Below, one piece after another: positions 20,997 through 48,247 of a stretch of 64,000 nucleotides of DNA (within the stretch, counting starts at the first letter, position 1; every line of letters begins with the position of its first letter). Origin of the DNA: Strobilurus pachycystidiatus (lineage: Eukaryota > Basidiomycota > Agaricomycetes > Agaricales > Physalacriaceae); assembly GCA_019915135.1 (NCBI GenBank), contig JAHLMK010000005.1, forward strand, positions 62,001 to 126,000, read 5' to 3'. The translations under genes were made by a program, and so were the position numbers. The notes under the pieces are model-generated. The model saw nothing but the letters and a program-made list of their open reading frames with translations, searched no databases and was not told the DNA's origin.

Positions 20997-22862
20997 AGCA
21001 CTGATATCGTTCTGAGACCGAACCGACATACGTTCAGTACCTGAACACCCGTCCGTCCGACACAGATTGAGACCCACCAAATGAGCCTTTTGCGATGTGT
21101 GAGAGCAGCGAGAGAGGTGTGTTTGCGTCGCTTTGGGTTCGGGATCCGGCTCTGCGAGTGACCGTCATGTAATCCCCGAGCCCAGCTGGTCTGGCAGCCC
21201 ATCGCTCAAATCCCTGAGCTTTTTCCCTGGCTTAAGATCCCCGTGGCCTATAGAGGTGAGCGCATAAATCCCCGAGACGGTTCTCTCATTGACAATCCCG
21301 GAGGTCTCTTCCTCTCAGTTCACAAATCCCGGATCGACGCACCTTCTCCCAAATCCCGGCCCTCACCCCTTACGAATAATCCCCAGGCCGTTTCAAGGTG
21401 AGCTCGTTCCTCCTGGATGTGTTTCCTGTCGCTCACAATCCCCGAGCCATGACAGCTCACAGATCCCGAACTCGTTCTAGTCAGTCAACGGATCCCCGAG
21501 CCCTCTCAAGGTGAGCGCGAATCCCGGATCTGTTTGGTTCTGCTCACAATCCCGAAGCCCTTGCAATGTAGCTGACGATCCCATTCCCGAGCCCTCCGTC
21601 CCAGCAAATCCCAAGCACAGTGCTCGCCGATCCCCGAGCCTGTGTATCCTGTCGCTCACAATCCCCGAGCCATGACAGCTCACAGATCCCGAACTCGTTC
21701 TAGTCAGTCAACGGATCCCCGAGCCCTCTCAAGGTGAGCGCGAATCCCGGATCTGTTTGGTTCTGCTCACAATCCCGAAGCCCTTGCAATGTAGCTGATG
21801 ATCCCATTCCCGAGCACCCCATCCATGCAAATCCCGGACCCGGTCTTACTTGCCACGGATCCCCAAGCCCTTCAAAGGTGAGCTCGCAAATCCCGGTCTC
21901 ATTCTATTTCGCTCACAATCCCGGAGCCTTGCTCATCCGCTCGCAAATCCCGGACCCGGTCTTACTCGCCACGGATCCCCAAGCCCTTCGAAGGTGAGCT
22001 CGCAAATCCCGGTCTCATTCTATTTCGCTCACAATCCCGGAGCCTTGCTCATCCGCTCGCAAATCCCGGACCCGGTCTTACTCGCCACGGATCCCCAAGC
22101 CCTTCGAAGGTGAGCTCGCAAATCCCGGTCTCGTTCTATTTCGCTCACAATCCCGGAGCCTTGCTCATCCGCTCGCAAATCCCGGACCCGGTTCTACTCG
22201 CCACGGATCCCCAAGCCCTTCGAAGGTGAGCGCCCGTTCTATTTCGCTTGCAATTCCCGAGCCTTTCTATTGTAGCCGACAATCCCAGATCAAATCTTTC
22301 TTTCCCAATCCCCACCCCTCTTCATCAACTTGCAAATCCCGAATCCAGTCTTACTGGCCACGGATCCCCAAGCCCTCTGAAGGCGAACCATTCTCAAATT
22401 CTGAAGCCAGTCTTCGCCACGGATCCCCAAGCACTCTGAACGTGAGCTCCCCAATCCCAGACCCCTTCTATCTCGCTCACGATCCCCAAGCCCTTTCAAC
22501 GCGGTGGACCTCCAATCCCCGAGCCCTCTCAAGCTCACCAATTCCGGACCCGCTCTGTCTTGTTCACCAATCCCCGAGCCCTACGACGTTGCCATCAATC
22601 CCGAAGCCCTCTCAATTCCGAAAAGCCAGTAATTCAGATCCGTCCAATCCCCTGCCCTTCTAATGTCGCCTTCAATCCCGGAGCTCTCTCAATGCGACTG
22701 CATCAATCCCCAGCCGTTTCTTTTGTCTGAGAATTCCCGAGCCTCTCCCACTTTGCTGACGATTCCCGAGCCCTTCCCATGCCACAATCAATCCCAGCCC
22801 TCTCTCCATGTGAGTTGACTAATTCCCGAGCTATCTTCTCTATCTAACAACTCCCGAGCCTT
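20997..22862. repeat. Left inverted-repeat arm with ATCCC motif array
   Basis: A 190-bp tip (starts AGCACTGATATCGTTCTGAG) is followed by roughly 55 copies, counted by eye, of a loose motif ATCCC(C/G)(G/A)AGCC spaced about 25-35 bp, all in the same orientation. Within it a higher-order unit of about 115 bp repeats three to four times (about 21890-22230). The array reaches into the start codon region of the F-box gene at 22893. It is read inverted at 46270-48247. Confidence 0.9.
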
Positions 22863-22892
22863 CGTTTCGCACTTCTCGCACCGCCTGCCACC

Positions 22893-24506
22893 ATGGATGC
22901 GCAATCCCGCCCGCCCACACCGCCTGACACCGACAGCGGCGCCACTTTGACAACGACCTGCACACCCTCACTGCTTTCTGTCGCCCTTGTTCACGACGTC
23001 GTTCTGCGTATCGTTGAGTTTGGATGTGAGGATTTGGGATTGGCTCGTGTGTTGAACTCGGTGGCAAGGAGTTTTGGGCCACTGGCAAAGGCGGCGCTGT
23101 TCAGATCGGTCAGCGCGAACCGGAACCAAGACCGAGAGCATCAGGCGTACCTACGCCCAGTGTCAAAACGGCGGTGGTGTCTGGGTCGGCCTGATCGCTG
23201 CAGCCGCCGCTCTGCCAGCTGGGCCACAGTCATTCGCTTCTTTTCGGAGCAGCCGCATTTGTGCCGTTTCGTCAAGGAGCTACGCCTCATTGGACGATCC
23301 ACCGCGAACCCCGAGGGCGAAGGTCACAACACCCACACCGTCAGCGCACTTCCTGAGCTGGCAGCCACGATGTTCACTCTTTTCCGCCACGCACACGCGT
23401 TGACTCTTACCGACATCGCGACCGTTGGACTCCCCCTTACCAATTTGCCCCCAGGCATACTCCTTTTGCGCTTTGATGGCTGCGTCATACACCTTGACGA
23501 TCTTCCCGCCTTCATTGGCGCATTCCAAGACCTTCGGAGCCTTGTCTTTGGCTATCGAAACAAATTCGTTTCGTGCTACAGCGACACGGACGTCGACGCT
23601 CCAGAATCTGCTCCAGAATTTCCGTCCCCCTCAAAGCTCACCGTCATGTACAACTTCTTCGAGCCTACTGAGGTCAATCACGTCTTTATTAGCTGCCCAG
23701 GTGTCACAACATTGTCCATGTCCATGTCGCCAGTCCAGTTGTGGACGCTGTCGTCATCATTACAGTATATCTGTGCCAGGTGCGAGCTTGAAGAATTTCA
23801 TCTGCGGCTTTGTGAGTCCTCTATCTGCGTCTGAATTCTCTTGTTAAACCAGACCGCAGCTCATTCCAAGCTCCCTTGGCCTACTCAGTGGACGCACGCG
23901 GCCATATTCGCTTGCTTCTCGGAGCTGCGCTCCTTACACTTTCACGTCACAGACTCTCAGCTGGAGGGTCTTAGTAAAACCATGAGTCTTGTTCGTCCTC
24001 CGGCGCTCCAGACCCTCCACTTGCACATTTTTCTCGGAACGACCTTGACCATCAACCAGCCATACAGCATTGAACGGAAGACAAGGCGCTGTCTTCACCG
24101 GCTGTGTCGCGCCGTGCTGCCCATCGCGCTGCAGGATACCAATAGGCTGTGCCGCATCCACGTTCAATTCGGTCTCGACCTTCACGCGGTGCAGAAGTTG
24201 TCTCGCCCCACGTCCGTCAACGTCATCTGGTGGGCTGAACTCGTCGAAGCCCTCCATGCTTTTTTCACTGCCGACCTTCTGTCGCTTCCGAAGGGATCCG
24301 TCTCTTACAGCATGGATCCCAGAGTCCCGTCTCACATAGATCCACTATCAGACACTCCCTGGGCACGGCGCAAGTGGGATAATGAATGCATGATGGCCCG
24401 TAAAGAGAAACAGGAGAAGGTGAATGAGCAAGCGGCCAGGGCAGAGCAGGAAGGGCGGCTGGAAGAGTTCTTGGCGGGACTGGCGTCCGACAGTGAGGAG
24501 GAGTAA
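22893..24506 (+). CDS. F-box/LRR-like protein at the inner edge of the left arm
   Basis: Model: 22893-23811 joined to 23860-24506; 521 residues. The start MDAQSRPPTPPDTDSG has a CCACCATGG context, and its first codons still contain one copy of the array motif. A weak F-box-like helical segment lies at about residues 28-70. It is followed by the pattern seen in the sibling genes: VIRFFSEQPHLCRFVKELRL, then leucine-rich strands. The C-terminus is a charged helix (ARRKWDNECMMARKEKQE) and an acidic end. Likely siblings are at 24609, 26100 and 44969. An SCF adaptor role is inferred only from the family. It reads inward from the arm, so the arm must carry its promoter. Confidence 0.6.
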
Positions 24507-24608
24507 CAACACTTTAATCTGAGCACATCCGTCCCGTTAAATAACCATTTACATCTGGATCTTAGATCTGAACTTCTAACTAAGTAGCACAAAAGTGATT
24601 GTATTTAC

Positions 24609-25988
24609 TCAAACGTTCAACATAGGAAATTTCACTGCCACCTGTATCCGTTTATCCAGAAATGTCCAGGTGCGATCTTTGGTCGTGGAAAACATCCTCT
24701 GACCCACTACGCGTATACGCGCCATGGACCTCTGAGCCACGAATTCAACCAGTTCAGTCTGATCGGAACGACCGTCAAGCAAGCCCATTACACTGGTAAA
24801 AACCACTTCCATGTGGGTTATAAGGCCATGGCCACGATGTCCTCGTACCCACTCCGTGAAAGCGACCTTCATCCATGCAAGGAAGTGGGCTGTAGCGGCA
24901 TTATCCAGCCGCCCAACCAGGCAAAATTCAACTCTCAACGACTCGACCTCTGCCAAATCAAGAGTACGCAAGCTCTCCAGGAGAGCGGCACGGTCCAAGC
25001 TATCGATACATAGCTTGAGGGAGGTCAACTTCAGACCGCGGAAGTCAACCTTCGACGCCCAGCAATCTGGTACTGCACACTTTGTTATCCTTCCATCCAG
25101 TAAATTAGAGATAGACACTTACCGCGGGCCAAGATAGTGACGTTCTTCAACGTTCCACGGCAAGCGTGCAACAGTTGAATGCATGACTTGGCAGTATTTG
25201 GAGCGTAAATCGTCCAGTCCAGAGTCTCCAGCAGGCTAACGCGATTCAACCAAGTAGGTTCCCACGTTACCACACTGTCTCCCAGCCAAGTTGACCCAAA
25301 TTCCAGGGACCGTAAGGACGCCAGGCAGGTCTCAGCCCGAGTCACACGGGACTGCCATTCGACGTCAGCCTCGGGATTGCTGTAGCGAACGAGTGGGTGT
25401 AACAGCGGTGTGGCGGAGGCTGGTCGCTGGCCAATTAGTCTGAAGGCGCGCAAGGCTGGCGTGTATGGAAGCAGAAAGGCAAGGATGTGGTCCAGGTGAA
25501 TATAACAGTCTCGGAATTCGATGAACTTCAGATATTTGAACGGTCTGGTGACAAGGGGGGTGCGTGCAAAACCGTCCTTTGCGGGAGTCCATTTGTCGAA
25601 GTGTACGTTCTGCACCGTCAACGCCTGCAAATTTGGAAAAGATAGGGCGAACGTCACAATGGGGTGAAGGAGGGCGTCTTCTACTTCGACTCCTGGGGAT
25701 TGCAGAGTCAATGACTTGACCCAGGCAGCTACCTCCCCATGAGCCTCCTTTTTCATCTTCTCTGTCATCTGTAAGAGAAACGGTAAGCAGTTTCTAGCGG
25801 AGTCACTTAGCGTTGAAACTTACCTGTGGTGGAGTTACGCAGGTCGTTGAAAGACGTGCAAAGCCCAGAGGACTCAGTCCATTCCGAGTGTCTCGGCAGA
25901 TTCGTCTCATCTCTCTCAAGAGGCCAAGGTCGTCCCCACCAAGGTATGAGCCAACTTCCCCCCATACGTCGGCTGGTAGTCGGGGCAT
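24609..25988 (-). CDS. F-box/LRR-like protein
   Basis: Model on the minus strand: 25988-25824, 25768-25123, 25072-24609; 424 residues. It begins with an F-box-like helix (MPRLPADVWGEVGSYLGGDD). Leucine-rich strands follow: WVKSLTLQSPGV, FPNLQALTVQNVHFDKW, FIEFRDCYIHLDHILAF. The last matches FEFQRC-type strands in the sibling at 44969 and FDGCVIHLDDLPAF in 22893. It is divergently arranged with the F-box gene at 26100, 111 bp apart, suggesting a shared promoter. Both introns are standard. Confidence 0.65.
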
Positions 25989-26099
25989 GAGTTTATCAAG
26001 AACGACCGTTTGTTCGAACTCGTCGTATCTGATCCTTCCGTTTGGACCTGACCAATTTCAGTTCTTTGCATGGGGAGATCTCAGATCTGCACTTCCACC

Positions 26100-27702
26100 A
26101 TGTCCCTCGCATCCTCACTACGCTTCCCCAACGAGCTATTGGAAGAGGTCATCGAACAAGCCTGCCTTGAGCACCCTTCCCTTGCTTTCCCCCTTCGTCT
26201 CTCTGGCAAGCGCTTTTCTTGTGCGAGCAAATACGTGTTCTCCCAGGTCACAGCCGACATCACCTATTCCTCCACTGCTTGGGGCACCGGAGGGCTTGAC
26301 TCCCGCCCAAAAACGGAACCAAATCGCGGAGATCCGCTTTGGAAGCCCACACCATGCACTCATTCCCCGCAGGCGGTTTTGCATTTCTTTTCCATTGAAA
26401 GCCCGCACCTAGCTGTCTTTGTCAAGCAACTCACTTTTCGAGGACATGGTCCTCGCCACCGTCGCAAGGGAGCACAAGGAAACGACATCATTCCGAAGTT
26501 CGGCGCCTTCATCAGTTTACTTCCTTCCCTTTCTCTCCTTACCTTATACCACATGGACCTCGGCGACTTGGAAGCGCCTCCCAGTCACTATGCCCTTTCA
26601 AAGGTGGTCCTCCTTGACACGATCGTCCAGCCCCCGGAACGCCTTTTCCGCGTTCTCCTTCAACTTGGGCATGTTGAAGAGCTGTGCCTTCAACAGAGCG
26701 CAGTCCTCGCCGCCAGCAGTCCATCGAGTCGGACTTCATTCCCTGTGCCTTCCATTCGTCGCTTATCCCTTGAAACAAACTTGGAGGGGAGCGAGGTGCA
26801 CATGCTGAAGGGGTATGACTTTCGAAATTTGGAGTCTCTCCAAGTGAGCGCACCGCTCCATGCGTTCGAGGAGGAATCATTCATGTCCCAGCAGCGTGTG
26901 GATCTGCTCCAGCGGTTAGTGCCCCCCATCTCATCTTTTTCCTTGGTCATCAGTAAGTGGCGCAGTTTCCCAAGAGATGAGCCCGTGCTGAAGCACAGCG
27001 TTAGCCCCTTCGCGTTTCTTTGAATTGAGAGAGCAGCCAGAACGACTGGAATCCATCTTCCGAAGCATGCTGGCGCTTAGACAGCTCACAGTAACAGCGT
27101 CGGAAGTGGACGCTGCGTCGGCTTGCAATCTGTTATGGGTCGTCGATTTGCAAGGGCTTCAGGCACTGACGCTGCGACTGAACCTCTCCGGGAGGTTGTT
27201 CGATTACGACGCGCAGCATGGACGGCTAGACAGCGACTCTGAGACCCAGACAACGGTGGCGGTCATCAAGGAGGTTCTGCGCTCTTTAATGAGTCTGCAG
27301 CCAGATCTGCAGCTGTCTTTAGTGTTTGGGCTGTGCGCAGACACGGCTCCTCGCTCGCTCTACGAGGAGAGGTGGTTTTATGGACTCACTCGCCACCTCT
27401 TAGGCCAGATGAGTCTTCCACCAGCAGTGAAAGTGACGTGGGCAGAAGATGCGCAGGCGTTAATGCAGGTTGATTCGCAGGGAGGCGTTCACTCATTTTA
27501 CAACATGCCCGCCCACCTTCACCGCAGAACGGCCGGCTCTAGCGACTGGTATCTGTACCACTACCCTTGGCACTTCTACAGCGACTTGCGAGCCTCTGGT
27601 GATGATTGGGATGAAGTCACCCAAGCGATCGTCGAGGAGAATGAGAAAGATTTACGCGCGTTTGAGGGGAATTGGGATTGGGATGACAGGAAGGAATACT
27701 AG
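26100..27702 (+). CDS. F-box/LRR-like protein
   Basis: Model: 26100-26952 joined to 27032-27702; 507 residues. The start MSLASSLRFPNELLEEVIEQ has a CACCATG context; an earlier in-frame ATG at 26070 is possible. The F-box-like motif is at residues 7-50. It is followed by AVLHFFSIESPHLAVFVKQL, the same block as in the siblings, and by leucine-rich strands. The C-terminus is acidic (NWDWDDRKEY). Its 3' flank shares an AACT-GAGTAGCACA stretch with the flank of the gene ending at 24506, supporting duplication within the segment. Confidence 0.65.
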
Positions 27703-27849
27703 GATAGGCTGGCAAAGACTTTCAACAATCACAACTTTATCTTATGGTATAAAATTTCGATTTGATTTGAGTTCTAACTATTCAACTGAGTAGCACAGCC
27801 GGTGATGGTACGGTATTAATAATGAGAGCTAAGGCAAGTGGCGCTTGAA

Positions 27850-29712
27850 CTAAGCGCTAGGGGGGCCTGCGCCTGCGGCCGTATACGTAGGGAAGACTCC
27901 ATCCTCCTCACCAAGCCAGCGATCCCGATCCGCGCACCCACTGTGTCCATCCGCGCGAGCGTCGATAAGGGTGTCGTAGCCAGTCTCAGACGTCTGAAAC
28001 ATGGACGCCTGATTGAACCACACGACAGAGCCGCGCCCATTGCCAGCCTCCCAGTCCTCCTCTGAGACCCCGTCCGGTCGATTCAAGGGAGTTGAGTTTT
28101 CACGGGTGGGGGGTGAGCCGTCGGTGGTGACTACCTCAATCTTGGAACGAAGATCGATGTTGAAATGAAAAAACAGCGAGGAGGAGTAGAGAAGGAATAC
28201 GCCCGGCGGAAGCTCCATGTACACATTCGCCTCCCATATTACCAGCCAAGCCTTCTCTCGGTGGTTGAAGACGCCGAAGACGAACACAATGCAGATGCCA
28301 AGGGCGAGGTTCTTGAAGTCAACGTGCGGGTCGCAGTACACCCGCCTCCTTCCCTCCCATTTCCCCTCCATCTCCGACCCCAGCCATGGCGCGTTGAGGC
28401 ACCAATTCCAGAAATAACCGAACGGCACCCACATGTCATGGCGGTCGAGCATGAAGTCGTTACAGGCCTGGTATCTTCGGGCGACGCCTGGGAAGTTGAC
28501 CTTCAGGATGTGATTGGCAATGTTGCTGCGAGCTTGTCAGTTGTTTGGATGGAGACAAACAGCACAAGTACCCACCTGATAGAACGGAAGGCAGTTCCAA
28601 CTTGAAAATGCTCTTCAAGAATGTTTTCATTATCCTGGTGCCACTGCGACCAGCCGGGGAGCGTCTTGTTGTTCCGGTCGGCGCCTGCGATACAAAACCA
28701 GTGCGATCCGCGCTTGTTCGAGTCCATAGCCGCCTGGCTCATTGGGACGCAAGCCTTCACAAAACGCCGAGCCTGCTCGCAGAACTTTGGCAGCAGCCTC
28801 GCTATCTCCGGGGTAACCTCAGAGCGATAGATGACGAGGCGTCCAGCCGAATCGAGGATGCGAGTGGCCTTCCCAACGTAAGGTATCGGCCTCATGCTGC
28901 TAACAAAACTCCAGACGCTCTTCCCCGAGGAGTGGGCCTTGCGTAAGAGGGCGGCCGGGTTTGTTTCGAATCGGCGCCCCATCCATGCGGTCGAGGTGAG
29001 AGGGAGGGAGGGCGCGGCCAGCTCCGCCCCTGCGCGAAGCGTCTCGGTGCGTTCCTTGTCTCGCCGCTGCGAGTCTCTCTGCCTCTTATCCTCGCGTCGC
29101 CGACGGTTACGAATCGTCTGGGGACTTAATCCCTCCGGCGGCTGCTCAGTGCGCGCGACGGGCGCTGCAGAGGTCGAGTAAGCTCCAGTATTTCCTGGGT
29201 CGTACGAGTACGCTACTGGGGGCGGCCGAAGGGTGGAGGAGGTAGCGCGCTTTTTTGGAGGCTGCTGAAGGGTGGAGGAAGAGGCGCGCTTCTTGGGAAG
29301 CTTCGTCCTCTTACGGCGGACTGTACGTTCCAAGACCACGGGCGGCACCGCGCCGGCGTCGGAGGAGTACTGGAAATCGGAAAGGTCGGATAGGTCCGAC
29401 AGCTCTGAGACGTCGCAAGAAAAGTCGTCCCAGCAGGGGTCCTGGGATGGGGAAGGAGTAGCGGAGCCAGGCGTGACTTGCACGAAGTGGTACATCCGAG
29501 GGTCAACGTTGAACGCCTCTGCATCGAGCGCCTCTTGCCGTACCGCGGCGAGTTGAACGAGGTCAAATTCGAGCGCCATGCCCTCAGAGGCTGAGATCCT
29601 GAGCAAGCGTCAGGGCGGGAACGAGGACGATGGGCGGCACAACTCACCCAGGGCCAAACACCCTGTCAACTAGCTTTTTCAAGCGCGCGGCGGCACGGGT
29701 GATTACGACCAT
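27850..29712 (-). CDS. TET/JBP-like 2-oxoglutarate/Fe(II) dioxygenase
   Basis: Model on the minus strand: 29712-29648, 29598-28576, 28525-27850; 587 residues. The N-terminal half is basic and low-complexity (KRTKLPKKRASSS repeats, RNRRRREDKRQRDSQRRDKE). The C-terminal half has the double-stranded beta-helix pattern of the fungal TET/JBP family: HxD at H430 and D432 (CDPHVDFKNLALG), then WEANVYMELPPGVFLLYSSS, the distal histidine H483 (FFHFN), and a 2-oxoglutarate-binding arginine candidate at R527 (GRGSVVWFNQASMFQ). Family members oxidise 5-methylcytosine or thymine in DNA. Substrate here is not known. It shares the inverted-repeat segment with a KDZ transposase. The first exon was added because it splices cleanly and supplies the only upstream ATG. 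Confidence 0.7.
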
Positions 29713-30885: not shown

Positions 30886-31921
30886 ATGACTGGTGAGTGT
30901 CCTACGCATCCTCTGAGCTATGCCCATGGAATTTTGATTAGACATAGTCCCCGCACTTGCCGTTGACTTCGTGCACCCCATCCATCGCATACCACCCGAA
31001 ATCTTGAACGAGGTTTTTGTCCAGCTGGTCTCAATTTGTCAACAAGACTCGTACCAGGGATTGGACGCATCCACCAGAGTCTGCTCCTTATGGCGATCTG
31101 TCGCGCTCTCAAACGCCCGCCTCTGGTCTGGATTCCACATCGAGAGCCCAACATACGCTAGTATCCCTCGTGTCTCCCTCGTTCTTTGGCGTTCGAAAGA
31201 CTCTCTTTTAAACATCGTCCTCCATGATGCAGAGGGCGTTTACAACGAGGATTACTGCGCCACAGCCGAAATCCTGTGTCTTCTACTCAAACACTCGCAG
31301 CGTTGGCAGACATTCGATTTGTCTCTTGGGCGTATTCACTACCATTGTGAAGCGGGGATGCTTCTTTGCGCACCTGAACGGGTTCTGTATTACCGGCCAG
31401 CACAGATGGAGGCCCTGGAGAGCCTTAAGCTCTCCCTACCACACGGCATTGAGGAAGAAGAGTTTGTCATCACCATGTTCTCTTCATCTCCCCGCCTTCG
31501 AACTTTCTGTTATGGAACGGGGCCGTGCAAGGTCAATTTACCTTGGGGGCAGATCACCGACCTACACATCAGCTCAAGTTGTTGGTTCTTGGCAGACGCG
31601 GTGCACTATCTGGAGGCGCTGCAAGGTTGCACCGCCCTGGAGAGGCTATCGGTTGACACACCTTCCTGTTGGAAACGTTATCATTCCGATCCTGATCGTC
31701 TGGAGGTTTCCTTCCCCCAGCTAATTCAGTCCGGTTTCGGTGCCCAGACGGTACTGTTGGCAGGTGCAGAAACCGGTTCTGTGGACCCATACGAGCAGGA
31801 ATACTTCTCTCTCTCATTCCCCTCCTTCATGGATCTCTTACTTGGCATGGGATGGTGCAGACAGGTACGATCGTCCTTCCACTATTGACTCAATCAAACT
31901 CAGACTTTTCAAAAGGGTTAG
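30886..31921 (+). CDS. F-box protein (canonical type)
   Basis: Model: 30886-30892, 30942-31864, 31904-31921; 315 residues. The first exon is only seven bases (ATG ACT G). The F-box lies at about residues 14-60 (IHRIPPEILNEVFVQL, VCSLWRSVALSNARLW), the classic agaricomycete form. The rest is leucine-rich. The last intron would be unusually short (39 nt); without it the protein ends at 31888 with a slightly different tail, so the C-terminus is uncertain. Unlike the four other F-box genes in this segment it belongs to the common fungal F-box type. Confidence 0.7.
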
Positions 31922-32011
31922 TTTAGGCGCTCCGCCTCCAAAGCGTCCAGCGGCCATCAATTCGTCTACACACACGACTTGTCTACAAACCGTAACTGCA
32001 ACGAAAACCGA

Positions 32012-32771: not shown

Positions 32772-32852
32772 GGAGGATGGGCAAGTGGCAAGGTTTCGCA
32801 CCTTTTGAATCTGCTAGACCCCCACCAGCAGTTGAAATCGATCTCCGACGCT

Positions 32853-32912
32853 CAAGTATCAATCCCCAAGCTCAGCTCCCGAGAGTATCAATCCCCAAGG
32901 TTCATCCCCCTG
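32853..32912. repeat. Small internal cluster of the arm motif
   Basis: Two copies of TATCAATCCCCAAG and one of CTCCCGAG occur within 60 bp. This is the motif that fills the terminal arms, found here near the middle of the segment between two minus-strand genes. Confidence 0.45.
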
Positions 32913-33082
32913 AAGTCAGCGTGGAATGCAACAGCGTAACAGGGCAGCATGACAGGCCAGGTGCTACCACAATGTCCGACCGCTGACTTTCCTGCCGATG
33001 ACGCTCTTGGCATCTTCTCTGAGCTATCTAACTATGAAATTGGCAATATATTCGAAGCACAACGACGGTGTACCTTGAAATC

Positions 33083-35151: not shown

Positions 35152-37160
35152 CTACAAGCCTTGATTATCGCGTTCAGTGTTTTTAACCGGGTGGTCTACC
35201 CCAAGAACGTTCTTGTCATCTTCCGGCTTTTTATCACCATTCGCCTTCTTCTCGTCTTTTCCCCTCTCTTGGGCACGCAGTCGCGCCTCGGTAAGCCAGC
35301 TTTGCAGAATTTCCGCCTGGCGCTCCCATAATCGACTTTGGTTGTGCTGTAGAGCACCCGATCGAAGGCCAAGGCTCTTCCCCTTCTTGATGCCCTTGGG
35401 GTAGCGGTAGATCTCGTCAATGGGGACAGGGAAGATGCGCTTGACGAAGTTGATCATCAGAGCGCGAAGGCGAGGGTTCATCGCCTGCGAATACCACCCG
35501 TCTTCCACCCCTCGCAGCTCGTCGGGAGCGTGCTCACTCATGGAGACCTTGGCCGTCTTGAAAAATAAGTATTCCCACAAGATGTCCTCCAGATAGCAAC
35601 CGCAATGGGCAAGGTTCTCGCGAGCGTCGTTACTTGATCCCGCAGCTACGCCTGTGGCGCCCATCGGCCCTCCTCCTAAGGCGTCATTGACGGGGGCGCG
35701 ATGAGAAGAGGTTCGATGGTAGCGGCATTTGATGTTCGTCCTAGGGTTTCGTTTAGGTCCCAGCAAGACCTCGTGAATGTGCAGAACTAATTCGCGGTTC
35801 AAGTCAGCGGTTCCGGGCAGGAGGAAGGAGTTGTCGCGCAGATGAGTACGGGCGGTCTGATCAAGTTCGCCCTTGGGATAGGCGAGCATCCAGTCTTCGA
35901 CCTGCTTCTCAATCTTCCCTATGAGTGAGTCATGTCAGTTTATTTCAGTGATTCGATCTAAAGGGAGTGCGGCGTACGTGTCATGCTCTCTTGCTTCTCG
36001 GGACCAAGTTTTTCCCAAGCCTTTGAACAGGTGGTCTTCTCAGCTGGCTCCTTCGAGTCATCCTCGACGTCCTCGGCCTTTGGCTGTTCGTTGTCACCTT
36101 GGCCAGCGCCGCTGTCTTGCGCGCCCTCGGATTTGGCTCCTGAGTGCCCTTCGATTGGCGTGCCGTTGGAGGCGAGAGTTGGAGGCGTGCCGTCAGAGGC
36201 GAGAGTTGGAGCGTGTGGCTCCTTGGCGTCAACAACAGACTCTGGAAGCTGTTCCATGCCAGCGTCAGAATCAGCGTCTGCATCTGATTCGTATGATACG
36301 GGTGGCGGTGGAATGAAAGAAGCATGACCACGCTTGGCGATGGGATTGCTGCTGCTCTCCGTGACGGCAGCAGAGGCGCCCGTAAGTGCGTTTGGGGAGG
36401 GTATGTCCCCGAGGCCATGAGCTGGACGACTCAGTCCGTCATTATGAGTGATTCTTGGAGAGGGATTGGGGATGCTTTGGGCTCCGCCGGCGATAGCACA
36501 CACAGGCTCAACAGCGGCTTGCGCAGGGGCGGGGACGGCAGGCGGCTGAGGTGTGGGCGCAGCTTTTTTTGCAGTAGAATCCATGGGAGGTAACTTCGGA
36601 CCAATTTGCGCGCCCAGAATTTGGGCAGTTGCAGATGACGATGCTGCAAACGGTGCTGTAAGCCCAAGATCTTTACAAGGCGCGCCGTTGGCCTTACCCA
36701 TGACAGTGGAAGCGGACGGAGGCGTATTGACGCGGGTTGTAGGCTCTTCTTCTTGACTGGGCGGAGGAATATTGGAGTCGGGTGGGAGGCGTTCGTAGGC
36801 CGCGGGCGGGTACGAATCATGGCCTTGTTCTGGCTCCAGCGGGTACGCACCACTGACAGTCACTTCTTGATCGCTGGTTACAGGGTCTTTGTCGCGTGGG
36901 GTGGTGTGGGGTGGTGAGAATACCGGGGACTCAGCACTTGGGTGTTCGGGTATCGTTTGTAAGGGACTGCGTATGCCTGGTTGAGCCATGGCAGAGAGGG
37001 AAACGGCATGGGGACCCTCGATAGAGGCCAAGTTGGGATTTGGGAGGTAACGCTGTACAGTGTCGGGATTGAAGACGTAGTGGTCGTCGGGCGGCATGGA
37101 ACGCATCTTCTTCTGTGACGACTCAGCGTCCATGTTGTCGTCCTCCAAAGCGTGTTTCAT
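35152..37160 (-). CDS. Uncharacterised proline-rich protein with conserved-looking C-terminal domain
   Basis: Model on the minus strand: 37160-35978 joined to 35918-35152; 649 residues. The first about 370 residues are Pro/Ser/Thr/Ala-rich and disordered, with acidic patches. The C-terminal about 270 residues look globular: WEKLGPEKQESMTRKIEKQV, WMLAYPKGELDQTARTHLRD, YLEDILWEYLFFKTAKVS, LRALMINFVKRIFPVPIDEI. A Lys/Glu-rich end follows. No family recognised. The start is the ATG of MKHALEDDNMDAESSQKKMR, 53 bp after the stop of the upstream same-strand gene. It may act with that neighbour; both are confined to this segment in this window. Confidence 0.6.
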
Positions 37161-37212
37161 GGTAAAGACGCCCGAGAAAAAATTTGTGGAGGACGACGCT
37201 ACCAAGGATCAG

Positions 37213-38214
37213 TCAAGCGCACTGAGAGTGACATACACGGCACTCACCAGGAATGCCAAAGTACGTCCCAGGGTTATTATCCGGTACCAGTGGTTGATGA
37301 TCGTCGTCTACAAAGGAGGGTTACGATAATGATCATTGATCAAACGGAAGTTGCACGCTCACGTGAGACAGAGTACGTATCGAAATTTAAATGGCCACCG
37401 TTCATCGAGTGGTCAGGATGGAAAGTATGATTCTGTGAGTATGGATCCAGAGGATTCAAGGCGTACGGAGCAGGGTTATGGAGTGGATAGTGCTGAAGTT
37501 CAGAGGGATTTCCATGATCGTTCCGGAGGGCAACAGCACTTCCAGCTGTATCCATGGAGTTGCCCAGTTCGAACTCTGATAGTTGTGGCGTCCAAAGGGG
37601 TGGTTCATCTGCTGGCGGTGGTATGTCATGGGGTGGTGAGGGCGCGCAACTAACTGCCCCGCCGCCTGATTGGATGTGCAGTGAGGAAGGAGGCTCCTGG
37701 CCATTAGAATCCCTCTTGAGGAACTGTTCTAGCAGCGCCGCAGCGCCGGTTTCCTCGTCCTGTATCCTTGCTCGTAGGTCAAGCTCATCGTACAATCTAG
37801 AGGCGGCTGCGTGCAACTCCACCATCTTTGTCCATTTTGTCCTCTTGCTTTCGAGATGGCGCTCTAGTGGGCGAGAAATGAGAAGAGAGCACCTGAGGGA
37901 GGAAACGTCGTACCAGCAACGCCATAGTTCGTGTCACCTGGCTTGGCCTCAGCGAGCAACTGTTCGGCCTGAAGGACCTCTTGTGCCGCCTTGTCCATAT
38001 TTCTTTTCGCAGTATTCAGCTTCTTACCAGCATGGGACCTCTGCTGTTTGAAGCTAAGAGCTTTCTTGGGAACGGTTGGAGCCAAGTTGCGCTGTGTAGG
38101 CGGTTTACGCCCCGGACTTTGGTCGCTGCGCGAGGAACCAAGAAGGGCAGCTGGCAAAGGAGCAGGGATAAGACTCTTCGAAGGAGGCTTGCCAGTGGAG
38201 GTCGCAGGTGGCAT
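37213..38214 (-). CDS. Uncharacterised protein with coiled coil
   Basis: Model on the minus strand: 38214-37914, 37863-37363, 37307-37213; 298 residues. The basic N-terminus (MPPATSTGKPPSKSLIPAPL) leads to a helix that may form a coiled coil (AKRNMDKAAQEVLQAEQLLA) and a second one across the first intron (ERHLESKRTKWTKMVELHAA). The C-terminal half is Pro/His/Asn-rich. It lies directly upstream of the 649-residue gene on the same strand with a 53-bp gap, a spacing tight enough that the short exon 3 could also be read as its leader. No family recognised. Confidence 0.5.
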
Positions 38215-38666
38215 GCTGGCAAGGCGAGCAGGTTGTAGGCGTGGCGAAGCTCAGTGCGGAGGGAGGGGGAATGAAAGAGGGAAGGAATGGGAGTCACTGG
38301 GATTTGGGCGCTGGGATGTGATGACTATGAAAAATCCCTTCACCTACTACAGTATCCGAGATTTGGTCTTAGGGATTTGATTTCCAAGGGTTGCGAAGGA
38401 GATCACATGGCCCAAGCGGTTGTGAAGGCCATGTGTGCTCCTACAATTGTCAAATTCACCAAAATAGGACAGCAGAATGAGTTTGAACTTTGCGATACGC
38501 GATAAACGAACATTCTGTGAGCGACTGGGCGGTTCATCGCATCGAGATATAGACGTCATAAGCCGCGGGAGTCGGGGTATAGAAATCTTTAAAAGGCGGT
38601 CAAACGTGTGTTTCCAGACGTAGGTTCGCCCTTCAGTCTTTCTTGCAAAGTCGCTCCATTTTCTCC

Positions 38667-39268
38667 ATGGCTGTCGTCGAAAAATCAACCGTTGTCACTC
38701 GCCGACGGCCAGTCCTCGCCAAGAACGAGTTGGGCGTCATCATAGCCAACCGTGGCGGACGTAGCTTTCGTGAGTGGGATGAGTTAGGTTGGGCTTGCTG
38801 ACCTACAGCTCCGTACCTTTAGAGATTCAACGCCCCCGCCCACTCCGCGCTCCAATTTCAAACTCAGAATCCTCTGCGAGGCGCTTTGAGCGCATTATGA
38901 AGGAGATCATTGCACGTGTGAGTAGCGTGTTAAGTTTCAAAGCGAGGCGTAGTGCTCACCAAGCACTACAGTGCGAGAGTCTCTCTGTAGAGACGAATTG
39001 CTGGTTGCACATCGTCGGTCAACATCAGACTTCCGGGCGCGATTTCATCGGCTACGTGTCCCCCAGGCTGCTTCGCAGTGATGCAGACGGCGTCAACAAC
39101 ATCCAACAGGCTTGGGGCACCGTGTTCCAGAACCTGCTCAAGTCCGCCCGTCAAGAAGCCTTGGAGATGACCAAGGCGCTGAACGACACTCGAGCGGAGC
39201 TGGAGAAGGAGAGGATGGGCAGGCTTGAGCTGGAAAGGCAGATCCAAGTGATCGCAAGGCCTGAGTGA
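38667..39268 (+). CDS. Uncharacterised small protein with C-terminal coiled coil
   Basis: Model: 38667-38769, 38823-38917, 38972-39268; 164 residues. The N-terminus is basic (MAVVEKSTVVTRRRPVLAKN). A middle part follows with a possible strand-rich patch (CWLHIVGQHQTSGRDFIGYV). It ends in a long charged helix (LEMTKALNDTRAELEKERMG) typical of coiled coils. It is divergent from the gene starting at 38214, about 450 bp away. No family recognised. Confidence 0.55.
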
Positions 39269-41659: not shown

Positions 41660-44600
41660 ATGTCTGGGGATGAGACTCCGTACCGGGTGACGCGCCTGGT
41701 TCCACCTCCAGACTCCCCTCCGTCGCCAGTCAAGATGCTTCCCCGCCTAGTGCCTCAGTCAAGTCCGGAAAAGCTTCCACCAATTCGTCGCCCCATCTTC
41801 CGCCCCCAAAAAGATAAATCGACTCGACCAGGTCAGGCTGCGCCCGTTCGCCAAGCCCGTGTAGATCTGACGCGGGACGTCCATGACGTGCCTCCAACGA
41901 ATATCACTCCAGGCGCGTTGAATCCTGTCTCCACACCGTCAACATCCTTTGCTTCGCAAGAGCCTACGCTGTTGGAATTGCTTGCGCATGTGGGATCTCA
42001 GGGGGTGGGCCTTGGTAATCTAGCCTTCAGCACGTCTGATGGCGCTGGTCTGGAAGGCTGGGATCCGTCAGAGCATGAGCCCAATGACACTGCAGCAGAT
42101 TTCATTCCCCCAGACGCATTCAGCCAGCCATTACGATTAGTGAACAACGAACAAATGTTTATCTGGTATATTCGTGCAGTACAGGACTTTATCGCGGGCT
42201 TCTACCGGATTTCACGGAACTGGGTCGTTGTTCAAGGGTGGAACGCCAAGGAGCTTTGTGCAGTGGTGAGTTGTGGTCCTGCTTGCTCATTTTGTGACGT
42301 CTTTATCTTATGCGTAATAACATAGCCAAGATGGTATCACCTTCACTTTGCTCTCCTTGATGGCGAGATAAACGTACATTGCGGCTGTCCAGGATCACGC
42401 ATGGCCTTAACCATGTGCGTACACGAACAGTACCTGCGCGAGTTCCAGGAGGACTTGTTCCCCATAGATGCAAATTTCACGGATAGTAGGTCCTTTGATT
42501 GTCTCCCTCGCCTTGACTTACCGATGTTTTTGGTCAGGTAATCCGATTCTTGTTTTTAGAGAACCGCAAGCGACTGCAACTGTGCAGAGCTGTTTCTCTG
42601 TGGGTACCAACTTCAGCGCTCAGCGGTCTCTGGTACACCACACCGGTGTTGAGGGCGGTGGGGGTGTTTGGAAGTGCTCTCGAGATAAAGGAACTCAGTG
42701 TGAACACATCAAACTGTGTGCACGCTATCTGGAGGAGCTGGAGTCAGGAATTCTTAGCGCTGATGGGGAGGAGGGCATCGACCACAGCGAGCAATACGAT
42801 GAGGATGCGGAGGGAACCACTTTGCCTGGTAAAGCCTGGATTCTGCCCACCAGGCCATGAGCGCACACTGATCCCTCTTAGATGCCTTCCAGATCATGGC
42901 TGACAAAACGTCAGCACCAGACATTGGGATCTCCAATCGACCCGTTCCGCCACCGATCTGGGCTGCTTTACCTACGGACCGCGAAATTTACCCCCGTCCA
43001 CGTCCTCTACGAACGTCACCAGGCCGTATTCCTCTTGGAAGCGAACCTTCCTGTCTTTGTCAGGCGCCTGAAGAGATTGTCCTTGGGGATCAGGTTCGAG
43101 GGCAGATTAGTGCTCGCCTATACACCATCTTGGACGTCCAGGCCGTCGACGTGGAGATCTACCAATGCCCTTGTCCCAACAAGCGGTGTAACATCGGGCC
43201 AGACACTCGTAAACTTGGAGTTTTCAACTATAGCAACGCCAAGCTCTTCACCCACGAACTACTTGACGAGTACACGTCGCTCTATACTGTCTCGGAGACC
43301 CCCTTCCATGCATTCGTGACCATCGTCAATCGTCGCTATCAAACTTCGGGAACAGGCATGAAATTCGTGACTCCTGACGAGTTCCGCGCCGTTTGGTTTG
43401 CATATGCCCGTCTTTTACTCTTTGATCATGATTTTCAGTGTGTGTCTTGCGGCCCACACCCTAAGGAAGTTATCTTCGATGGCATGGTACTGGCTTTCTC
43501 AAAAATCCAGAGATTGGCATCGCTACGCCCGCCAACCACTATCGACGAAATCTATTCCCCCACTCGAGCAAATCGACGCTATGCCAAAAACGTTCGGTTC
43601 ATTCATACGGACGTTCTTCGAAAAGACATGCTAAAAGCGCTTCGGGCACCTCTGTGGACCGGCGAGGAGGGTGGCGACACCCCTGCACATCTCACGCGTT
43701 TGCAGAGGATAAAGAACGGTTTAGAGTCAAGGCAATACGTTTGTGGCGCTGGTCACCTCACGAATTACACCTATGACCTGGCAACCACGTGGGAGGACAA
43801 CTGGGGGCTACAGGCGCACTTGGCTCGAAGGCCTCCCCCTCCAGAGTTGAAAAGGTTGTTTCTACAGGTATGTTTGGTTCGGTTCTGTGTTGGGTGAAGC
43901 GAAAGCGTCATGCATCCCATCAGATCTGTGGACCAGAATGGGCGCTACAGGTCGTGAATGTGCGCGCTATTGACTCCCTGAGGGAGTTCATTACTCATCA
44001 GAGCGTGGCGAGTGTAGAACAGTTGGCACGAGTTCCAGCTTTGTACCAGGTCATTCATGCCGTGAAAGCGCAGAAAGTGCACAACCCATTCTTTAACGTT
44101 CTTCAAGTCGTGTACCTGGCAGGATGGATGCTATTCCGTGTTGAACAAGTCCGTACGCAGCTGCTGGAGCCACAACAGCCGCCCGATCCTTTCTGCAATC
44201 CAAATCAATTCAATGACAACTGGGAAGAGGTGTGTCGTTTGCCTACTGTGTATACGAATAGTGATTGACCACAGCTCGCATTGAAGACCGGCTGCTACTA
44301 TTCGATGCCCCAAATCCGTCATCGACCTCGCTATCCGGGCCTGGCGCACGACCAGACTGCAGAAAAGTCCAACAAAGACCAGGAGAAGTGTAACAAATAC
44401 TACGACCAGTACGGCAAACGAAAGCTTACTGGAGGCATCATGGTCGTATGGTGCCGACACAGCCTTGCGTACGGTTTCCATTGCATTCCCAACGCGGAAG
44501 GGCGCAATGACGTTTTCTCCGCCCTGTATACGCGTTGGGAGGTGGCGCCAGAGGTGATTCTATACGACTTTGCTTGTGCGCTCTCCCCGTACTGCATGAC

Positions 44601-44925
44601 GAGAGAGCCTACATTCTTTGCGCGATCTTTCATGGGAATCGACGGCTTCCACGCAGGTGGCCATTCCATGTGCAGCCCAGCTTCGATGGTCACGAATTAC
44701 TCCGCCACAGATCCGTCCTTGGCCAAGGTGAACAGTAGTGCAGCCGAGTGCGGCAATGGGGCCTTGAGCAAAATCCGCACCTCAATTCGCTATATGGGCC
44801 AGAGACGAGCAGTGATATATACCAAGACTTTCTTGTCAATTTGGAATCGCATGAAGATGTTGCGAATGATGGAGACGGCTCGCCTGGAGCAACAGGCTGT
44901 AGAGAAGTATGATGAGAACCCTTGA
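41660..44925 (+). CDS. KDZ-superfamily transposase-like protein with cysteine-rich N-terminal modules
   Basis: Model: 41660-42265, 42326-42485, 42538-42828, 42882-43867, 43924-44229, 44275-44925; 999 residues, no stops or shifts. A Pro-rich N-terminus is followed by a SWIM-like zinc motif, C221-x-C223 and C233-x-H235 (HCGCPGSRMALTMCVHEQ). Further Cys clusters (CSRDKGTQCEHIKLC; CPCPNKRC; FQCVSCGPHPKEVIFDG) resemble the CxC modules found with KDZ transposases. The C-terminal 220 residues match the KDZ/Zisupton type: MVVWCRHSLAYGFHCIP, YDFACALSPYCM (D881), DGFHAGGHSMCSPA and NSSAAECGNGALSKIRTSI. I could not place all three acidic catalytic residues, so activity is open. It is the only candidate mobility enzyme in the inverted-repeat segment. 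Confidence 0.78.
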
Positions 44926-44968
44926 CTTTCAATTATAGAAGTGATTGTATAGACACAATACTACTGTA

Positions 44969-46266
44969 TTACGAGGCGAATGGTGACGGCTCTGTATCGA
45001 CGAATATGTGAAGGACATTTAGAGGAACAAAATGGAGATGGCTTTTAAATGCCGGCATGACCGTTTGAACGCAGAAGTCGCGCATGGCCTGGAGACCCAT
45101 TGTACGTATGTCTTGGAAAAATATACGAATCTCCAAACGATGCAAGGTTTTTGCCCTAGCAAGACCCCATAATAAAAGATTCAAACGAAAGATAGGATGT
45201 TCGAGGAAGTGCCCAGTGGAAGAGTAGTTGTCTGGCTGAATGCAAATGGCCAGATGAACGGTCTCCAGCTGACCAACAGGGATCCGATGCAAAGTCCGTC
45301 CCATGCCCAGTATGTCGTCGAACGGGACTTGCACGTGAAGGTGGAGGAGAGAGGTGGGAAAGGTCTCAAAAAGGTTCCATGGATGAACCCAAGGATGCGG
45401 GCTGCAGTGAGCTGACAAGACGTGAGCACCGAGATGAGAAGCGTCAAGGAAATCATACATGTCTCAAGTATCAAGGTCGAGCACCGGTCTAGACACATGA
45501 ATCGCAACCAATAACTCAGTTCCTCGGTCATATTGACTGGTTTGAGGCGGGAAACCTTCAGCGTATGCATGGCTGGGCACAGTATGAAGGGAGGGTACTC
45601 CGTCTCGACGGAAAAGGTGTCCGACAGAGTGACGTGGAGGGAAAGAACGTGATATGCGCTTGGCCATTCCGGGCCGTCAGCGAAAGCGTTGGGAAGTTCG
45701 ATCGGAGTGCGGCATCGATCAAGTGCGATCTTGGTGACGGTGGGGGCCATGGAGAGAAGATAGTCGAGGTGGATGAGGGAAACGGTGCAGCGTTGGAACT
45801 CGATAGTGGAGAAGCGTTGCCTGTGATAAAGTTCGGGGGGAAGGGTGTTCTCGACCAAGGAGAGGTCTCGCAACACAAGCAGCTCTAAATTGGTGAACAG
45901 CTGCATGAGAGCGAGACCGTTGCGAACGAATTCGTCCGAATGCAGCGGGGAGATGGAGGCTACCGTAAGTCGCTTGACTGCCCGTCCCCAGGACATCGGG
46001 TGGGACTTGAAAAACTTGATTACGGCCTGGGGGGTAAGGAAGGCGTGGGTCTCCCGGTCCGTGTCAAGCGTCCTGGTCACCGAGACGCTCTGGAAGACGT
46101 GACGACTTGCCCTATCGTGGAAGGCAGTGGCGACCGTGCGAAGGGATACAGACGTGCGCTGATCCTCTCGGCATGCCTCGTCTATAACAACGTGCACGAT
46201 TTCGGTGGGGAGGTCTTGGATCGAGGTGGCGCGGAAGGAGGTTGAAGGGAGCGCCGTTGGTGGCAT
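44969..46266 (-). CDS. F-box/LRR-like protein at the inner edge of the right arm
   Basis: Model on the minus strand: 46266-45459 joined to 45411-44969; 416 residues. The start MPPTALPSTSFRATSIQDLP was preferred; the frame is open upstream through part of the motif array to another ATG at 46452, which would add array-encoded residues. F-box-like motif at about 15-60 (IQDLPTEIVHVVIDEACRED). Then AVIKFFKSHPMSWGRAVKRL and leucine-rich strands follow, the same layout as the siblings at 22893, 24609 and 26100. It mirrors the gene at 22893: both start where an arm ends and read inward. Confidence 0.65.
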
Positions 46267-46269
46267 GGA

Positions 46270-48247
46270 GGCAAGTTGCAAGGTGGCGAATTGCACTTTT
46301 GATTCACCTCTGGTATCAACACCGGCCAATAAGAGGTCTGGGATTGGCTGAGGCGTGGTGGAGACCACGGGGATTGCTGGTAAGACAGAGCGGGTCCGGG
46401 ATTCGCATAAGCTCCAATGCAATTGAGCGAGGGCTGGGATTGATCGTGGCATTGGAAGGGGTCGGGGATCGTTAGCTGAAAAGATAGGGCTCGGGAATTA
46501 AACTCGCCTTGAGATGGCTCCGGGATCAACAGCAAAGTAGGAGAGGCTCGGGAATTCTCAGACAAAAGAAATGGGGATTGATGCGCTCGGATTTGAAGAG
46601 CTCCTGGATCGAAGGCGACATTAGAAGGGCGTGGGGATTAGACGGCTCTAGATGACTGGGTTTTCGGAATTGAGAGAGCTTCGGGATGCTGGAAACGTTG
46701 CAGGGCTTGGGGATCCGTGGCGAGTGAGACCGGGTCCGGGATTTGCGAGCGGATGAGCAAGGCTCCGGGATTGCCAGCCAGCTACATTGAAGACGCTCGG
46801 GAATTGCAAGCGAAATAGAACGGGCGCTCAACTTCGAAGGGCTTGGGGATCCGTGGCGAGTGAGACTGGACTCGGGATTTGCAAGTTGATGAAGAGGGGG
46901 TGGGGATTGCGAAAGAAAGATTTGATCTGGGATTGTCGGCTACAATAGAAAGGCTCGGGAATTGCAAGCGAAATAGAACGGGCGCTCACCTTCGAAGGGC
47001 TTGGGGATCCGTGGCGAGTAGAACCGGGTCCGGGATTTGCGAGCGGATGAGCAAGGCTCCGGGATTGTGAGCGAAATAGAACGAGACCGGGATTTGCGAG
47101 CTCACCTTCGAAGGGCTTGGGGATCCGTGGCGAGTAAGACCGGGTCCGGGATTTGCGAGCGGATGAGCAAGGCTCCGGGATTGTGAGCGAAATAGAATGA
47201 GACCGGGATTTGCGAGCTCACCTTCGAAGGGCTTGGGGATCCGTGGCGAGTAAGACCGGGTCCGGGATTTGCGAGCGGATGAGCAAGGCTCCGGGATTGC
47301 TAGCTATATTGAAGACGCTCCGGGATTGTGAGCGAAATAGAATGAGACCGGGATTTGCGAGCTCACCTTTGAAGGGCTTGGGGATCCGTGGCAAGTAAGA
47401 CCGGGTCCGGGATTTGCATGGATGGGGTGCTCGGGAATGGGATCATCAGCTACATTGCAAGGGCTTCGGGATTGTGAGCAGAACCAAACAGATCCGGGAT
47501 TCGCGCTCACCTTGAGAGGGCTCGGGGATCCGTTGACTGACTAGAACGAGTTCGGGATCTGTGAGCTGTCATGGCTCGGGGATTGTGAGCGACAGGATAC
47601 ACAGGCTTGGGGATCGGCGAGCACTGTGCTTGGGATTTGCTGGGACGGAGGGCTCGGGAATGGGATCGTCAGCTACATTGCAAGGGCTTCGGGATTGTGA
47701 GCAGAACCAAACAGATCCGGGATTCGCGCTCACCTTGAGAGGGCTCGGGGATCCGTTGACTGACTAGAACGAGTTCGGGATCTGTGAGCTGTCATGGCTC
47801 GGGGATTGTGAGCGACAGGAAACACATCCAGGAGGAACGAGCTCACCTTGAAACGGCCTGGGGATTATTCGTAAGGGGTGAGGGCCGGGATTTGGGAGAA
47901 GGTGCGTCGATCCGGGATTTGTGAACTGAGAGGAAGAGACCTCCGGGATTGTCAATGAGAGAACCGTCTCGGGGATTTATGCGCTCACCTCTATAGGCCA
48001 CGGGGATCTTAAGCCAGGGAAAAAGCTCAGGGATTTGAGCGATGGGCTGCCAGACCAGCTGGGCTCGGGGATTACATGACGGTCACTCGCAGAGCCGGAT
48101 CCCGAACCCAAAGCGACGCAAACACACCTCTCTCGCTGCTCTCACACATCGCAAAAGGCTCATTTGGTGGGTCTCAATCTGTGTCGGACGGACGGGTGTT
48201 CAGGTACTGAACGTATGTCGGTTCGGTCTCAGAACGATATCAGTGCT
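46270..48247. repeat. Right inverted-repeat arm with ATCCC motif array
   Basis: Inverted counterpart of 20997-22862. From the tip (48247) inward for about 0.9 kb it pairs base for base with the left arm. Further in, the same motifs occur but the number of the 115-bp units differs and substitutions accumulate. On the plus strand the motif reads GGCTCGGGGAT. The 190-bp tip carries no motif. Confidence 0.9.

Follow-up and report, generated by a model that had tools for sequence, protein, structure and literature searches.

A 27-kb segment of the Strobilurus pachycystidiatus genome is very probably a low-copy giant KDZ transposon with inverted motif-array arms, a TET/JBP-like gene and leucine-rich-repeat-like genes

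The segment described here lies in a 64,000-bp stretch of the genome of the basidiomycete Strobilurus pachycystidiatus, hereafter the window, which corresponds to bases 62001-126000 of contig C5 in an assembly of 51.8 Mb in 61 contigs; this assembly was the genome searched throughout. At this locus a KDZ transposase gene and a gene for a TET/JBP-like dioxygenase lie, together with leucine-rich-repeat (LRR)/F-box-like genes and accessory genes, between long inverted arms, and a sequence-only reading of the window had proposed that the whole is one giant DNA transposon with F-box cargo. Further copies were found on contigs C15 and C6 (C5, C15, C6 and similar names are contig labels), and the large elements on C5 and C15 are referred to below as the giants. 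The features that delimit the element, and its two principal genes, are the following, in window coordinates.

20977..20984, no strand: left target-site duplication (TSD), 8-bp CATCGGTC, the same letters as 48260-48267
20985..20996, + strand: left asymmetric tip CAGATAGACAGT, the same in all three copies and not an inverted repeat of the right tip
20997..22770, + strand: left arm, an oriented ATCCC[CG]GA array with 21 forward and 0 reverse sites, an inverted copy of the right arm
27850..29579, - strand: TET/JBP-like dioxygenase of 559 amino acids, exons 29579-28576 and 28525-27850, from an open two-exon model and a profile match
41660..44925, + strand: KDZ transposase of 999 amino acids in six exons, with a CxC4 domain and candidate catalytic residues D552, D881 and E941, from an open model, Pfam and an alignment
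46516..48247, - strand: right arm, an inverted copy of the left arm with 21 reverse sites inside it and two more just inward at 46395 and 46462
48248..48259, - strand: right asymmetric tip, GTACTAGCCTAG read inward, from the line-up of the flanks of the copies
48260..48267, no strand: right TSD, 8-bp CATCGGTC, a perfect match to the left one

The element spans window positions 20985-48259 (27,275 bp), reaching 12 bp past each arm, and stands within a perfect 8-bp duplication. When the terminal 190 bp were used as a query against the genome, six matches were obtained, which are the two ends of each of three elements: the one in the window, a second giant of 26,683 bp on C15 and a copy of 5,082 bp on C6. 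The perfect 8-bp duplications differ from site to site (CATCGGTC on C5, TCAAACAA on C15 and CTTTTTGC on C6), and the fact that the C15 and C6 insertions have perfect duplications of their own fixes the true ends of the element. The termini read CA..AC, and the right-end tip, read inward, is GTACTAGCCTAG, GTACTAGCCCAG or GTACCAGCCTAG across the three copies. A genome search with the tip pattern ATATCGTTCTGARACCGA, allowing up to three mismatches, gave 66 matches: six without mismatches, one at each end of the three elements and nowhere else, none with one or two, and 60 with three, which look like chance given that the reversed control of the pattern gave 51.

The shared tips, the three insertions and the proper TSDs support the proposal that this is one giant DNA transposon, and the search for other copies bounded by the same 190-bp tips that had been suggested as a check found them. 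The arm ends, described as sharp, are indeed sharp, but they are not the limits of the element, which is 12 bp longer on each side and has tips that are not inverted. Perfect 8-bp TSDs together with inverted arms, present in all three copies, are the pattern of KDZ-type elements such as Zisupton, Dileera and the Cryptococcus KDZ elements, and the element does not show the 7-bp TSD, CA..TG termini and lack of terminal inverted repeats (TIRs) published for two Laccaria families of Kyakuja. It is very probable that the 27-kb segment is a complete, low-copy giant KDZ transposon. The left arm and the KDZ stretch had no match in phage and plasmid collections, and no captain domain of the Starship tyrosine-recombinase type was present among the 20 open reading frames (ORFs) of the segment in the Pfam scan, shorter ORFs lying outside that scan. 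When the empty sites were joined in silico, ORFs of up to 151 amino acids were found to span two of the three junctions. The C6 copy (C6:638725-643806, 5.1 kb) consists of near-identical 1-kb arms around 3 kb of filler, and 1,757 bp of this filler, searched against the genome, matched itself alone at full length, plus 10 short pieces.

The arms pair as x + x' = 69244, exactly as first described, and the identity claimed for their outer 0.9 kb is correct to within a single mismatch between element position 13 and about 943. Positions 20997-22382 align with 48247-46832 at 97.4% identity over 1,416 columns, and beyond this best-aligned part the arrays of the two arms remain 76-78% similar, out to about 1.8 kb. 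At the ends of all three copies the ATCCC[CG]GA sites point inward, with 19-28 sites per end. Within the terminal 1.9 kb the expected orientation is seen for 44 of 44 sites on C5, 51 of 55 on C15 and 38 of 40 on C6, the sites of a tandem array being mutually dependent and these counts not independent. The exceptions are two reversed sites near the tips and two inside the core on C15, and two reversed sites near the tips on C6. Base shuffles of an arm contain about 0.1 such site (maximum 2). Of the 48 genomic occurrences of a longer arm word, AATCCCSGAGCC, 35 fall in the three elements, and its backward control is absent from the genome. Single copies of AATCCCSGAGCC stand outside the elements at C13:575298, 576801 and 578343 and at C23:643624, 645163, 691033 and 692575, with a spacing of about 1.5 kb, and possibly belong to another repeat family.

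In the model of the transposase gene, five GT..AG introns, each 45-60 bp long, interrupt a reading frame of 999 amino acids that has no internal stop. Its CxC4 domain is matched in Pfam with E values of 1.8e-36 (exon) and 7.7e-36 (spliced protein), so that the cysteine cluster of KDZ proteins is present. An alignment of 12 proteins shows no variation at D552, D881 and E941, which suggests that they are the catalytic residues, the first of them being the least sure. A protein homology search found 157 proteins, and nearly all of the 120 listed have 37-49% identity; the named transposase relatives among the matches listed come from mushroom-forming fungi. The gene is open in the C15 giant too, with introns at equal positions.

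The TET/JBP-like gene is open in both giants, with its intron at the same place. Its putative iron ligands H402, D404 and H455, and R499 as the putative 2-oxoglutarate-binding arginine, align with those of four TET/JBP-like proteins of the genome. A four-sequence profile of the gene compared by hhalign with these four proteins gave a P value of 8.5e-8 and a probability of 92, against P values of 0.027-0.77 for eight column-shuffled versions of the profile; the four proteins were chosen by eye from 11 fetched loci and each scores 23.3-26.3 bits against a Tet_JBP cut-off of 34.9, for which reason the assignment is good without being watertight. A protein search with exon 1 found two relatives, a partial protein that is 63% identical and a Hymenopellis radicata protein that is 30% identical.

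The product of the gene probably edits DNA methylation marks, and DNA is in our view somewhat favoured as the substrate of the enzyme. The main alternative is that the gene encodes a 2-oxoglutarate oxygenase with another substrate. It is true that the Pfam scan of the element's protein returned nothing, including no Tet_JBP match, that a PDB sequence search with exon 2 found no match, and that the proteins against which the profile was compared themselves fall below the Tet_JBP cut-off. Furthermore, AlphaFold gave for exon 2, from 3 sequences, a low-confidence model with a predicted local distance difference test score (pLDDT) of 32.4, and since this structure prediction failed, the identification rests on the profiles. 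These profiles, nonetheless, stand well apart from their shuffled versions and bring the H-x-D motif, the distal H and the R into register, and the gene rides a KDZ element, as has been published for TET/JBP genes (PMC12730594, in the part of the article available to us). The alternative is, on balance, rather unlikely. Relatives of the gene that are 59-65% identical in exon 2 are found among host-type genes at C1:2312001-2313410, which has an open frame of 519 amino acids, and at C4:429386-430978. It is possible that they are domesticated or source copies, and the one on C4 may belong to another element, given that it is enclosed by a pair of 44-bp inverted repeats that are 10 kb from each other. 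No relative of exon 1 was found in the genome search near the KDZ loci on C17, C3, C23 or C38.

When the giants are oriented by their asymmetric tips, their cores are mutually inverted. The simplest reading of this is that the core has flipped by recombination between the long inverted arms, and recombination between the arms, the same process, would also explain why the arms are so alike. Indeed, over the outer 223 bp the arms within one element are 98-100% alike, and those of different elements 80-88%; over positions 236-1000 the corresponding values are 93-100% and 70-78%. The tips just outside the arms stay different despite this likeness. The two arms of an element thus evolve in concert, most strongly near the tips. 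In insertion sequences, ectopic recombination between TIRs is described as turning an element round (PMC3004938, in the available part of that article), whereas here the arms exceed 1 kb and the tips stay asymmetric. The inverted cores could instead be apparent, arising from exchange or conversion of the short tips with the core left in place. In favour of such an exchange, only about 12 bp per end, plus a few bp just inward on C15 and C6, distinguish the left side from the right. A double tip swap without the arms would, nonetheless, take two independent events where a core flip takes one crossover between the arms, and we regard the tip exchange as unlikely.

Five further genes of the element were examined as candidate F-box cargo. 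They are listed here with the ratio of nonsynonymous to synonymous substitution rates (dN/dS) between the giants where it was obtained.

22848..24503, + strand: LRR/F-box-like gene FB1, two stop-to-stop ORFs, dN/dS 0.18 against C15, weak FB4 paralogue (E 2.2e-6)
24612..26057, - strand: LRR/F-box-like gene FB2, three stop-to-stop ORFs, dN/dS 0.35-0.45, homologue on C23 (E 1.6e-24)
26052..27699, + strand: LRR/F-box-like gene FB3, two stop-to-stop ORFs, dN/dS 0.16-0.23, weak FB4 paralogue (E 1.5e-6)
30938..31885, + strand: F-box-like ORF FB5, Pfam F-box-like match (E 1.8e-4) below the cut-off
44972..46266, - strand: LRR/F-box-like gene FB4, dN/dS 0.18, LRR-like model of the C15 orthologue

The Pfam scan found no F-box match in FB1-FB4, while three host control genes do match F-box. 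The profile of the N-terminus of FB4, compared with a host F-box profile, gave a P value of 0.02, above 20 of 20 shuffles, with a probability of only 2.4%, so that an F-box signal there is suggestive at most. For the C15 orthologue of FB4 a structural model with a mean pLDDT of 58.5 was obtained, for which Foldseek found a leucine-rich-repeat protein (E 2.9e-6); F-box/LRR ligases are present in the Foldseek list without standing out. From this model, FB4 looks like a leucine-rich-repeat protein. In a protein database search it has one relative, 64% identical, and FB2 shows no significant similarity to FB1, FB3 or FB4. FB5 scores 21.7 bits for F-box-like against a cut-off of 24.3, that is, 2.6 bits short, and has at least 112 matches in the genome, itself included. 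It has no counterpart on C15, where it has no row in the protein comparison and lies outside the shared core blocks, and it is probably a later capture. The F-box cargo of the sequence-only reading is therefore retained in part, given that FB5 is F-box-like, if under the cut-off, but FB1-FB4 are LRR-like and lack a Pfam F-box. Its putative ubiquitin-ligase adaptors are not supported: four of the five candidates have no Pfam F-box, and for the fifth no counterpart was found on C15; that the LRR-like proteins are ubiquitin adaptors is possible, if doubtful.

The remaining features of the core are the following.

33086..33748, - strand: ORF to which no function was assigned, 50% identical to an ORF on C15
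34042..34957, no strand: 171-bp tandem array; C15 shows one of 170 bp in the equivalent gap
35155..38250, - strand: accessory protein gene(s), four ORFs, dN/dS 0.16-0.30
38583..39265, + strand: small accessory gene, dN/dS about 0.12, homologue near the C23 KDZ gene (E 9e-18)

The tandem array of the C15 giant occupies its element positions 12735-13707. In PDB sequence searches one accessory ORF gave 13 matches with E values of 0.054-0.92, to antibody heavy chains and the influenza polymerase acidic protein, and a second gave one match, to CD2-associated protein (E 0.69).

The comparison of the two giants indicates which of these genes have been kept. Their cores are 68-86% identical at the nucleotide level in the aligned blocks (76-86% in the three longest-scoring ones), and the KDZ, TET, accessory and LRR-like genes follow in the same order in both. 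Values of dN/dS are 0.025-0.24 for the KDZ exons, 0.10-0.24 for TET, 0.16-0.45 for FB1-FB4 and 0.16 for the accessory ORF 35155-35934, as obtained by simple Nei-Gojobori counting on BLAST-aligned ORF pieces, several of which are near synonymous saturation. After removal of rows that overlapped a better-scoring row, 25 were left, 24 of them with a ratio (0.025-0.53), the value of 0.53 belonging to a 66-amino-acid ORF upstream of TET that was not used. The mismatches peak at one codon position in 12 of 12 gene segments (49-87% of the mismatches, the extremes being FB2, with 65 of 132, and the last KDZ exon, with 69 of 79), in a test that has no negative control, as the non-coding control did not align. 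From these substitution patterns the shared genes of the giants are judged to be under purifying selection. The earlier calls of one intact KDZ-like gene and one intact TET/JBP-like gene stand, given that the six-exon model of the former is open throughout and the latter, although divergent, is open across its two exons. Likewise, the proposals that the cargo belongs to the element and that a TET/JBP-like enzyme is carried by the transposon agree with the profile match and with the selection seen in the second, diverged copy.

The CxC4-KDZ exon is found at seven places in the genome, namely on C5, C15, C17, C3, C23 and C38 and as a relic on C10. The accessory ORF 35155-35934 is present at six of these, all but C10, at 7.5-13 kb from the KDZ exon. 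On C10 a gene that is 36-40% identical to FB4 is convergent to KDZ, as FB4 is on C5. The KDZ gene on C23 has an FB2-like gene (30% identical, E 1.6e-24) directly downstream and, about 12 kb upstream, a gene homologous to the small accessory one (E 9e-18). The fact that LRR-like relatives adjoin KDZ on both C10 and C23 indicates that LRR-like genes were linked with KDZ before the two giants arose. The combination of KDZ, accessory and LRR-like genes seems to be the older state, TET having apparently been added in the branch of C5 and C15 or lost elsewhere. In 12 kb of C23 read in three pieces, a 105-bp tandem array and six GTCCGGAC words were found beyond the FB2-like gene, and the left end of the C23 element was not found in 291501-299500. 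The region C23:313630-314480, beside this related KDZ gene, is a terminal-looking array with the different palindromic word GTCCGGAC, and arm motifs and transposase lineage may change in step. An inverted repeat at the C10 relic was considered as an element arm and rejected, being a dispersed repeat with further copies nearby.

These data also bear on whether the cargo is passive, that is, host genes swept up and carried without a role in the life of the element. FB5, with its many genomic matches and its place outside the blocks shared with C15, fits such a description, and so do the TET-like relatives that stand among host-type genes on C1 and C4. On the other hand, TET and FB1-FB4 are retained in both giants with dN/dS below 0.5 and a codon-position bias, and the LRR-like relatives next to KDZ on C10 and C23 speak for an older association, which makes passive cargo quite improbable. 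That a stable host locus or a segmental inverted duplication mimics a transposon is virtually impossible: there are but three copies, the two large ones strongly diverged, and yet a duplication at one locus cannot yield different perfect 8-bp duplications at three unrelated sites beside shared tips, which likewise makes an assembly artefact or a local inverted duplication untenable.

Several observations weigh against the reading of the segment as a complete KDZ transposon whose arms and cargo serve it. The KDZ catalytic domain scores 17.8-22 bits against a Pfam cut-off of 26.6 and is matched at its positions 74-217 only, its first third being unmatched; four of five KDZ homologues scanned are also under the cut-off and one has no KDZ match at E<=0.1. 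The last KDZ intron on C15 ends in GG where C5 has AG, the frame being open there and at an in-frame AG 12 nt downstream. The identity of the giants in the core blocks leaves recent jumping unsupported. To these is added the mutual dependence of the motif sites, as well as the fact that the arms of the C15 giant are 79% alike over their full 1,569 columns, their homogenisation being strong near the tips only. The observed/expected ratio of CpG is 0.89-0.94 in the elements and 0.94-1.06 in the flanks, with no clear footprint of methylation or of escape from it; given that the elements are equal to or slightly below their flanks, a history of silencing cannot be read from base composition.

Taking the segment as a giant KDZ transposon, its life cycle may be pictured as follows. 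The CxC4/KDZ protein would bind the ATCCC[CG]GA array at both ends and pair them, and the transposase would then cut at the asymmetric 12-bp tips and insert with an 8-bp stagger, presumably with the aid of the accessory proteins, of which one accompanies the transposase at six of the seven loci. The TET/JBP-like enzyme might oxidise methylated bases on the element's own DNA and so delay silencing, and the LRR-like proteins could serve as adaptors that engage host proteins. The long inverted arms would recombine and undergo gene conversion with each other, which would flip the core and keep the arms alike, and the 5-kb copy on C6 would be a non-autonomous passenger, movable in trans. A bolder reading is that a mushroom KDZ lineage has evolved a counter-defence kit, in which a methylation eraser is combined with LRR adaptors that tag silencing factors for destruction, between arms whose arrays of transposase sites flip the core and stay alike by gene conversion. 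We consider it unlikely that this reading holds as a whole; if it were true, this would be a eukaryotic element with a plasmid-like modular organisation.

The overall kind of element is not new, given that KDZ transposons with a TET gene, as well as KDZ elements about 30 kb long, have been published; the articles cited in this comparison are represented by the parts of them available to us. TET/JBP genes were described within KDZ transposons (Kyakuja, Zisupton) of Agaricomycetes by Kojima 2025 (PMC12730594), so that this background of the sequence-only reading was already established. The available text gives an 8-bp TSD for Zisupton and for one TET-bearing Dileera family, and 7-bp TSDs, CA..TG ends and no TIRs for two Laccaria Kyakuja families. 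The present element is like these TET-bearing transposons in having a KDZ transposase and a TET/JBP gene in one mushroom DNA transposon with an 8-bp TSD, and unlike Laccaria Kyakuja in its 8-bp TSDs, CA..AC ends, 1.4-kb inverted motif-array arms and LRR-like genes; the word F-box is absent from the main text of that article. It shares its size class and the presence of extra genes with the giant algal KDZ elements, which reach 30.3 kb in Ectocarpus, where a 31.7-kb Chlamydomonas element is also cited (PMC12477816); F-box is absent from the main text of this article, and its available part mentions no TET gene or arm arrays. The Cryptococcus elements KDZ1-3, which were shown to move, are likewise fungal KDZ elements with TIRs and 8-bp TSDs (8 bp for KDZ1, 4-8 bp for KDZ2 and KDZ3), but they are smaller (about 9-11 kb), have shorter TIRs (139-241 bp) and carry CxC1 where CxC4 is found here (PMC12810828); neither "dioxygenase" nor "F-box" occurs in the main text of that article. 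In fish, a Zisupton protein isoform with an F-box and F-box::CxC7 proteins are reported (PMC12062965), the F-box being fused with KDZ-type domains in one protein, whereas here the LRR-like proteins are encoded by separate genes. Marasmius oreades provides mushroom KDZ elements with characterised TIR motifs (PMC8290104). No LRR/F-box gene cargo or kilobase motif-array arms of KDZ elements were met in the titles and abstract beginnings of the literature searched, in which one paper mentions KDZ and F-box once each, and an earlier description may exist; the LRR gene set, the conserved accessory genes, the motif-array arms and the flip isomers are apparently new.

The fact that a giant KDZ element is fully bounded and has two open, long-diverged sister copies means that the cargo it needs can be read from selection. 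Three questions thereby become testable: whether a transposon-borne TET protects its own carrier, whether a transposon is served by LRR/F-box-like proteins, and whether long inverted arms work as devices for flipping and repair. The element also points to a lineage of KDZ transposons whose accessory genes are conserved.

About 83 kb separate the insertion in the window from the contig end on C5. Host F-box-like/LRR ORFs flank the element there, at window positions 4244-5947, 9061-11034, 50439-52247 and 57436-60849, and are about 32-77% identical to one another.

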